Assembly: GCA_022592435.1 (NCBI GenBank)
Contig: JABYQS010000104.1
Location: forward strand, 62,001-126,000
Direction: 5' to 3'
DNA length: 64,000 bases
From: Cerioporus squamosus
Lineage: Eukaryota > Basidiomycota > Agaricomycetes > Polyporales > Polyporaceae
Every line of letters starts with the position of its first letter. Within the stretch, counting starts at the first letter, position 1. A model generated the notes under the pieces. It was not told the DNA's origin, did no database searches, and saw nothing but the letters and a program-made list of their open reading frames with translations. Positions 25,955 to 28,759 of the stretch are shown in pieces. The position numbers and the translations under genes were made by a program.

Positions 25955-28759
25955 ATGTCCTCCAACAGTGATGCAGGTCCTTCGCACGAACGCCGCGTCA
26001 CCAAAACGGGAACTCGGAAATCCGCACAACCAAGGGAACAGCTTCGCCCCGGCCACGCGAGGAAAACCATACCCGCAGTCGTAGGCCCTGCCAGGAAGAC
26101 CATAATCACATCCGCAAATGAGCAGCTCCTCCCCGGCCCTGCCAGGAAGACAGTTATCGCAGCCGCAAGCCAGCAGCTCCGCCCTGGCCGTGTCAGGGAG
26201 TCTGCAGGATCCGATACAAGGCGAGACAAAGTTGGATTGGTTGCTGCTGTTTGCCCTTCTCACATGCATCAACAGTGACAGAGATAGAGATTTTCAACTG
26301 GCCGACGACGGCCGGCGCACCACCGCGCGCAAGGCCGCCGAACCAACGTTGCAATCGCAACCCAACCGACCAAAGTCGACTTTCAGCTACGTCGCACCAC
26401 TGCTCCGCGCTCGGACGCTGCCCACCAAGGAAGGGCCCTTGCTGCCGTCCGCCCATGTAGCAGAGGACCGCAGGGAGCGGGAGACGCGGCGGGAGCGGGA
26501 TGAATACGACCTCGGATCTACGCGGAGTGCCCCCAGGACGTCGTTGCCCTCGATGTCCGTGCAGCGGCGGGTGGCGCAGTCCCCACGCAAGCAGCAGCAA
26601 CCAGTGTCAAGGAGGGCGCCAGTCATAACCTCGGCACGCGGTCCAGTCCCCCTCGACCGCATCCCGGATGCTCGGGTCCATGTTGGACGCGGAGGGAAGC
26701 TAGTTTTTGGAAGTAGTGACAGCGAGGACGAGTCCTCTTCCTCTGATGAGGTTGTGCAATTTCAGTACGTCTCACCCTCGACTCTCGATTGTCATCAAAG
26801 ACTTCGATTGACCTACTTCAGGCATGCTAGGAAAACGAGTGGGGGAAAAGCACCCCGAAAGATTCTATCCGCGACGAAAGCGGCCCGCAAGACGCGGCCA
26901 GGTGCGGAACGGCCAGACCCGGTCATTCGGCTCACCAAAGCAGCCAAGAAGCTCAGCGTGCGTGCCGGGGAAGACGACGGCGCAGGCAGTTCCCGAAGGC
27001 TCATCCCAGGAGAGAGGTTGGCTCGGAAACTACAGGCCACGCCCGCCCTCGTGTCTGACGATGAGGATGTCATCGTGCTCTCGGACTCGGACTCAGACGT
27101 TGACGAACTCCTCGCTGCATTAGACGCGCTCACGCTGGCGGATGCGCGCATGCAGAAGCGCAAGCGACTGCCTTTCCTGCTGAGGAATCTCCGGAAGGGC
27201 TTCATGTACCAGTGCCAGAGACATGGCATCCGTGTCGCGCCTCCCAACGCCCCGAGGGGCGCAGTGAAGGTCGTGTTCAAGTACTACCTCGAGACGAAGG
27301 ACTCGGGTGCTTCGAGTGACTCGAGCTCGGATGCACGGGAGTATCAGACGTACGTCGGGAGCATGGCTGACTGGCGTTGTCCGATGTGCGAGCTGCACAA
27401 GCCGTTTGCTACGAGGGAGATGCTGATCTTCCATCTGTCGCGCGACCATTCCGGGGTGAAGGCTTCCTGGAGGGAGATCACGGTGCGCAACGTAAGTCCG
27501 CACCTGTCATTCCATGCAATACCACGCGACTGAAGTCAACACAGGAACACCGATGGCGGCTGGATCTTGTTATCCCAGATATCGCGGAGCTCGATGAGAG
27601 CTCATCTGAGGAGGAAGAAGAGCCTCCGGAGGTGCCGCAGGCACAAGAGGATGTCGCTCCCAGCCCAGCCGAAGCCCAGCCAGAAACTCTCGTGTCTCCG
27701 CCCGCAGCGCCGCTCTTTTTGCCAGACAGCGAATCCGAGGAGTCTCCTCCGCCAACCACACCGCCTACCCTCTTCTCCACCGAAGAAGTCGAAGAGAAGA
27801 AGGTGCTGATTCGCTCCTCCTCGTCTCCTACACCTCCATCGACAATCAAGCAGGGCCAGTCCCCACCGCCGCACGGCCGTGGACGGCCATCCCTCCCCAC
27901 CGCCGCACCGACCTCCTACCGCGGCTCGTTGCCCTCGCGCTACCCCAGCCCGCCGCCCCCTTCCAACAAGCTCGGGCCCGCGGCGCAATACCCGTATCTC
28001 CCGGAGAAGGGCAAAGACGGGCAGGAGCTGTACTCGTGCCGCATCGGGGGGCCGCGGCTGTTCGACTTGGTGAGCATGCTCCCGACAGAGGAGTTTGGCG
28101 TCATGGCATGGGCGGTCGTGGATCGGGAGGAGGAGCTGTTCGAGATGGAGGACCTGCGGGACGAGGATAAGGTCATGCTGGCGCTGTGGAACCGGTGGAT
28201 CATGCTGAATCGGTGCGTGCTCGCTCTCGCTCTCGTCCCCCATGACGCTGACAGCTTCTGTTGCGAAGATCGTCGTTCATCTTCAAGGACTACTTTGAGG
28301 GCGTGAAGCTCTTCATCAAGAAGTACTGGGAGATCATACATCAGGCGGCGGGGTGGCGCACTCTGCGGGAGTTCCTCATCGTGAGCTTTGGATTTCCTTC
28401 CTTCCTTTCTCTCTTTGTGGATGACAGGAGTGGCTGACACTGCACCTGCAGACGTTGAGCGTGAACAAGTTCCTTACCTTCGACAAGGTGCTGAAGTCTC
28501 TGCAGTACTACGAATCGTTCACCGGGATGGCACTATGGTACAAGGATGATATCGCTGCTGAGGCGGCGTCTTGACTTGGTTCAGTTGGTCAGCAAGTGCA
28601 TCGATCTGGGACGGTCGTGGACAGCTGCACATGAGGTGAGCCTATGGCGGGTTCTGCCCTCCACCCACATTTTATGCCCTCCGACTGTCGCAGGGTCTCT
28701 TTGATGTCGACATGATGAACCTTATCTTCCTGCCGTCAATTGTCAAGCTCAGCTATTGA
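25955..28759 (+). CDS. SUZ12: SUZ12-like Polycomb (PRC2) subunit with VEFS box and an H3-tail-like segment
   Basis: SUZ12 is a core subunit of PRC2, the H3K27 methyltransferase. Seen: a C2H2-type finger near 27378-27450 (CPMCELHKPFATREMLIFHL then H), then an acidic/Pro-rich linker. Near 28.16-28.53 kb is a VEFS-like region: KVMLALWNRWIMLNR, then KKYWEIIHQAAGWRTLREFL, then LKSLQYYESFTGM. The N-terminal half is basic and disordered. It contains three ARKT repeats (K37, K48, K65 from the ATG at 25955) and, at 26823-26900, a close copy of the histone H3 tail. A 57-nt intron (26766-26822) ends just before that segment. The first splice (perhaps 26200-26275) has a weak donor, so the N-terminus is uncertain; a start at 26118 is the alternative. 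Near the 3' end either a 55-nt intron (28538-28592, weak GTACAA donor) or a frameshift leads to LGRSWTAAHE and a final exon ending FLPSIVKLSY. Confidence 0.75.
26823..26900 (+). other. Histone H3 N-terminal tail mimic inside the SUZ12-like protein
   Basis: Codons read [13 protein letters not shown], then ILS, then [10 protein letters not shown], with the preceding residue Q completed across the splice. Aligned to H3 Q5-P30, 20 of 26 residues are identical with one inserted Ser. The equivalents of K9, K14, K18, K23 and K27 are all kept. S10, T11 and S28 are exchanged only for Thr or Ser. This is coding sequence in the frame of the zinc finger and the acidic region downstream, not a stray histone gene: there is no histone fold. 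Confidence 0.85.

Follow-up and report, generated by a model that had tools for sequence, protein, structure and literature searches.

In the basidiomycete Cerioporus squamosus, a gene for a SUZ12-like protein encodes a 26-residue mimic of the histone H3 tail, which is supported as real at the sequence level. The gene lies in the window (the whole stretch of DNA that was analysed, 64,000 nucleotides), and the mimic is most likely an H3-tail decoy that would receive methyl groups either from an H3K9 enzyme or from the complex to which it belongs. This complex may be able both to modify and to read its own tail.

26823 to 26900, plus strand: H3 tail mimic of 26 residues (H3 6-30 plus one Ser), preceded by Q5 from a split codon

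The best model of the SUZ12-like gene covers 25955-28574 of the window (plus strand) and joins six exons into an open frame of 783 codons. It was built from the sequence alone, with the joined open frame as its basis. A genome search (54 Mb, 988 contigs, with the window on contig C7) found the gene in a single copy.

25955 to 26220, plus strand: modelled and unproven exon 1, containing three ARKT motifs and a degenerate H3-like stretch
26276 to 26764, plus strand: exon 2, containing TTARKAAEP
26765 to 26821, plus strand: intron 2 (GTACGT...CAG, 57 nt), with no in-frame stop
26822 to 27491, plus strand: exon 3, joined frame
27545 to 28212, plus strand: exon 4, joined frame
28269 to 28380, plus strand: exon 5, joined frame
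28428 to 28574, plus strand: exon 6, joined frame, stop codon included

Introns 2-5 have GT-AG ends and lengths of 47-57 nt. Intron 1 is uncertain (GC-AG, 55 nt, picked by inspection), and GT-AG alternatives to it exist, including the donor GTAGGC at 26081, with which the first upstream ARKT motif is kept and the second and third are lost. An alternative start at 26118 is also possible, and exon 1 is then absent. The main mimic is unaffected by this start or this donor; some or all of the upstream ARKT motifs are lost with them. The same contig carries a gene for the cohesion protein PDS5 (window 14310-16547, plus strand; Pfam PDS5, E 6e-80 and 5e-75), and a desaturase-like gene (24207-24758, minus strand; FA_desaturase 20.4 bits, below the cut-off of 29.7) is apparently divergent from the SUZ12-like gene.

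The bounds of the mimic are exact, with the His codon beginning at 26823 and the Pro codon ending at 26900, and its frame is that of a 475-codon open stretch (26106-27533). The Gln codon preceding it (CA/G) is split by intron 2, whose retention (57 nt, a multiple of three, no stop) changes Q to R and leaves the remaining mimic unchanged. As the original prediction had it, the mimic with this Gln matches canonical H3 Q5-P30 at 20 of 26 positions with one insertion, a Ser; both the coordinates and the alignment agree with that claim. The predicted exchanges S10T, T11S and S28T were confirmed, but the list was incomplete, as T6H, Q19I and A29R also distinguish the mimic from canonical H3. The K9 (HARKTSGG), GGKAPRK, K23 and K27 (ATKAARKT) contexts are kept, and the stretch is strongly basic.

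The match to the H3 tail is beyond chance. Local alignment of the 783-residue protein with the canonical tail gave a score of 89, compared to a shuffle mean of 31 (s.d. 4.3); this score was reached in none of 2000 shuffles (Gumbel p 2e-8), and the mimic score was reached in none of 5000 shuffles of the local 60 residues alone. The H3 tail was also aligned with the 1,623 ORFs of 40 codons or more that six-frame translation of the window and of 13 further loci in the same genome gave, and the mimic ORF ranked first with 86, the best score outside the gene being 44. A phmmer search of the PDB with a 747-residue model returned 106 sequences at E ≤ 1 (best E 0.0027), and the best 60 of these 106 were all histone H3. 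When the fungus's own genome was searched for H3 (E ≤ 10), 17 of the 18 matches fell on six H3-like contigs and the remaining one was the mimic (E 0.076). Thus, the PDB, own-genome, shuffle and ORF comparisons all agree with the claim of an H3 tail mimic.

The mimic was compared with four H3 tails of the same fungus, encoded on contigs C301, C235, C423 and C124. A Thr follows K27 in all four, so that T28 of the mimic is native to this fungus, and the eight residues of the K27 context (ATKAARKT) are identical to those of C301. Overall identity to the mimic was 20/26 for C301, 20/26 for C235 and 18/26 for C423; the C423 and C124 tails carry QLAAKSQARKTAAA. The DNA tells a different story from the protein, since the H3 amino acids have been kept while silent sites are randomised, which points to selection on the residues of the mimic. 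Of the 20 residues common to the mimic and C301, only 5 have equal codons (7.7 expected under independent codon choice in this gene), the corresponding values for C235 being 6 and 7.9. At four-fold sites, 9 of 12 differ between the mimic and the fungus's own H3, which is the random level, and 47 of 78 nucleotides are identical to C301, with a dN of 0.24 and a dS that was not computable (a saturation value was returned).

These codon, four-fold site and nucleotide values reject a recent histone insertion, and the codon and silent-site differences exclude an assembly chimera with one of the compared H3 genes. Chimerism with a histone gene of the same genome, which the original prediction had named as a sign against the mimic, is therefore rejected on codons. 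Nor is the locus a histone H3 gene or pseudogene, as local alignments stop near P30 and the nucleotide identity to C301 is low at the value given above. A functionless old H3 insertion, a chance likeness or a chimera would fit the single copy of the SUZ12-like gene, but the chance p value, the retention of amino acids over randomised silent sites and the distance from C301 make such a relic or coincidence very improbable. If the stretch served as a basic tail with an H3-like affinity for DNA, RNA, RBBP4 or acetyl/methyl readers but were no substrate of PRC2, its kept GGKAPRK and K23 contexts and its basic character would be accounted for; a mere basic linker, however, would not hold 20 of 26 H3 residues over randomised silent sites, and this role appears to have little likelihood.

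The mimic would be either an old capture of an H3 segment or a convergent product, with its residues selected in both cases. Capture of an H3 exon segment fits the extent of the mimic (Q5-P30) and the intron that interrupts its Gln codon. The H3 gene of C301 has introns after K4 and after A31 and that of C235 has one after P30; C423 and C124 have an intron at a like place near the P30/A31 end and none after K4. This origin is suggestive only, because the K4/Q5 intron occurs in one of the four H3 genes, its phase is 0 in C301 and 2 in the mimic, and the lower end of the mimic is not at an exon border. In the two H3 genes on C423 and C124 (loci L007 and L005), whose product reads AAKSQARKTAAAATGG, the K27-like lysine is preceded by one additional residue relative to canonical H3, and this residue is absent at that place in C301 and C235. 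Contigs C35 and C823 (L026 and L011) carry H3-like genes with TARKSTGG and otherwise diverged tails, which are perhaps centromeric H3.

Identification of the host protein was based on its C-terminal region and on a finger-like motif further upstream.

28133 to 28478, plus strand: VEFS-like region against human SUZ12, exons 4-6, score 63
27378 to 27449, plus strand: C2H2-type motif C-x2-C-x14-H-x4-H (Pfam zf-C2H2_4 13.4 bits, cut-off 27)

No shuffle out of 2000 equalled the alignment of the first region with human SUZ12 VEFS. Its p value was 5.6e-5 with the region and 2.2e-4 against the whole protein, and the best background ORF, unspliced, scored 53. The Pfam VEFS-Box profile matched the C-terminal region with 9.8 bits over positions 48-120 of 137 (E 0.9), below its cut-off of 23. 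DUF4240, an unrelated family, gave 17 bits on a stretch overlapping the VEFS-like region, below its own cut-off, and was the sole match (14.7 bits) in a Pfam search with the whole 747-residue model, which found no VEFS. A whole-genome search for the VEFS family gave no match, and the control genomes gave none either; PDB searches with the VEFS-like region and with the finger region had no match at E ≤ 10. Previously, fungal SUZ12 homologues have been reported to differ largely apart from VEFS, which in some fungi is itself difficult to recognise (PMC7348808), and many Polycomb orthologues are reported to have key domains that Pfam did not pick up (PMC10638273). The C2H2 motif scored 31 against the human SUZ12 finger, a value reached by 49 of 2000 shuffles and exceeded by several background ORFs (up to 39), and an AF2 model of the finger region (27141-27491) had a pLDDT of 49, too poor for use. 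The zinc finger is not upheld as support for SUZ12 and adds nothing to the identification, which is carried by the divergent VEFS box. Of the SUZ12-like host originally described, the VEFS-type C-terminus stands with moderate support, whereas the C2H2 motif, which has the right residues, resembles the finger of SUZ12 weakly. We conclude from these sequence comparisons that the host protein is probably SUZ12. Another basidiomycete PRC2, that of Cryptococcus neoformans, contains Bnd1, which was at first missed and is most likely a diverged SUZ12 (PMC10638273). Bnd1 resembles the host protein in being probably a highly diverged SUZ12; it was compared by description only, and the available part of that report mentions no H3 mimic (PMC10638273).

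Further H3-like sequence is found upstream of the mimic, within the proposed exon 1.

26000 to 26086, plus strand: TKTGTRKSA---QPREQLRPGHARKTIPAVVG, a degenerate H3-tail stretch matched to H3 3-34, score 51
26084 to 26197, plus strand: tandem repeat with a period of 51 bp (17 codons) and 2.2 copies, which multiplies the PARKT motif in frame

The score of 51 occurred with a shuffle frequency of 0.0026 for exon 1 alone and 0.001 for the protein minus the main mimic, and when the 1,623 ORFs were compared with the H3 tail, the exon 1 ORF (25940-26275) came second, the third scoring 44. The gene model contains five ARK[ST] motifs, compared to 0.06 expected and a maximum of 3 in 20,000 shuffles; three of the five are ARKT motifs in the unproven exon 1. 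In all window ORFs of at least 60 codons (six frames, 69,477 residues) there are seven such motifs, including the five of the gene model. Moderate evidence, which depends on exon 1, therefore points to a second, degenerate H3-tail stretch and ARKT copies in this probable exon. A frame still further upstream, MDVSPQLCSREHQRARKTSGRKQGVTHA (window 25439-25525, plus strand), contains ARKTSGRK and has ARKTSG in common with the mimic; it may be a coincidence or a 5' exon.

The multiplied ARKT core bears on which enzyme might use the mimic. A Clr4/DIM-5-like enzyme could methylate the ARKT sites for binding by chromodomain proteins, so that PRC2 would be linked to, or kept off, H3K9me heterochromatin in a G9a-like way. 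This role explains the multiplied ARKT, the only part of the tail repeated in exon 1, better than an EED ligand does, and HARKTSGG preserves the K9 context. The genome has one pre-SET H3K9-type methyltransferase gene, with its SET part identified by reading of frames, and 51 chromodomain matches, 15 of which are probably repeats because they share one identical score. The motif of G9a/GLP is a short one of the K9 type, ARKT. Automethylation of H3-like motifs in G9a/GLP is followed by HP1 binding (PMC9768651), and the two systems are alike in having an H3-like motif in a silencing protein; the G9a/GLP motif is within the enzyme itself (PMC9768651), and in the mimic it is a scaffold-like subunit that presents H3 5-30. 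A K9-type mimic would not, however, require the exact K27 context or GGKAPRK, and no HP1 chromoshadow domain was found in the genome, by a search that was blank in every control genome as well. On balance, a purely K9-type role is rather unlikely.

We tentatively favour a reading that is plausible rather than probable, in which the protein is a divergent fungal SUZ12 with a tethered H3 tail that is methylated in cis, read by EED and thereby primes the complex. The H3 5-30 tail would sit in the N-terminal half, probably with the degenerate stretch and extra ARKT motifs further upstream, its segment having been captured long ago or reached by convergence and then held by selection. The SUZ12 scaffold would hold the mimic beside EZH2, the K27-like lysine in ATKAARKT would be methylated in cis, and EED would bind the product in the manner of H3, priming the complex. 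In support of cis-methylation, the K27 context equals that of the fungus's own H3 on C301, and an EZH2-type gene is present in the same genome. EZH2-type CXC was above the cut-off on two contigs, with SET downstream by reading of frames. These contigs (C173 and C468; L028 and L029) share many identical translated stretches, as with separate haplotypes, whereas the SUZ12-like gene was found once. A search of the same genome with an approximate human EED query gave two loci, both of which read as other WD40 genes, and no EED.

The known EED ligands both support and limit this cis-methylation reading. PRC2 methylates K116 of JARID2 and K1241 of PALI1, and EED reads both through the methyl-lysine and an aromatic residue at +1, which is essential (PMC4352895, PMC8319299). 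The mimic lacks such a residue, as a Thr follows the lysine in HARKT and AARKT, and plain H3K27me3 is bound weakly by EED (Kd about 42 μM; PMC8319299). Tethering could offset this weak affinity. The parallel with JARID2 and PALI1 that was drawn originally thus holds for function, with a PRC2-type link (putative here) and a mimic lysine; as described in the available parts of those reports, they are not H3 copies and present single sites in accessory subunits, in contrast to a 26-residue H3 copy with putative methylation. An EED site alone does not explain the kept K9 and GGKAPRK parts. Since these are intact, other H3 writers (a Clr4-type enzyme, acetyltransferases) may act on the mimic too and feed back on the complex.

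The mimic could also act unmodified, as an auto-inhibitory pseudo-tail that fills the EZH2 active site or an H3-binding site of the complex until nucleosomes displace it. Such inhibition has precedents in EZHIP, which inhibits PRC2 through an H3K27M-like peptide (PMC6513997), and in Swi6/HP1, where an H3 mimic sequence inside this fungal chromatin protein is described as auto-inhibitory (PMC7192584). EZHIP resembles the mimic in placing an H3K27-like sequence in a PRC2 partner, but its conserved stretch has 12 residues with Met at the lysine position (PMC6513997). The mimic differs in keeping the lysine, with no methionine, and in including the K9-K23 contexts. The retained lysine makes auto-inhibition less likely, and a role as a substrate is favoured because EZHIP M406K became a good substrate (PMC6513997); we consider auto-inhibition quite unlikely.

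A doubtful extension of the cis-methylation reading is that SUZ12 took in a segment of an H3 exon, from which a series of pseudo-H3 tails then arose at its N-terminus: a near-complete one, a degenerate one and several ARKT copies. The complex would methylate these tails in cis and read them itself. If so, its activating mark would be built in and would not depend on chromatin, and the K9- and K14-type sites would let other enzymes tune the complex.

Histone mimics are already known as a kind. To our knowledge, those of PRC2 are short and occur within accessory or inhibitory proteins. Among the matches listed in a search of open-licence titles and abstract openings, there was no H3 tail copy in SUZ12, and so long an H3 mimic within a SUZ12-like subunit seems to be a new form of this kind. 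The mimic could represent a histone exon that was put to a second use as a regulatory cassette. If true, a near-literal copy of H3 5-30 within the scaffold subunit would provide this fungus with a substrate and a ligand that are both built in, and would offer a clean way to ask whether the switching-on of PRC2 needs chromatin-borne H3K27me3.
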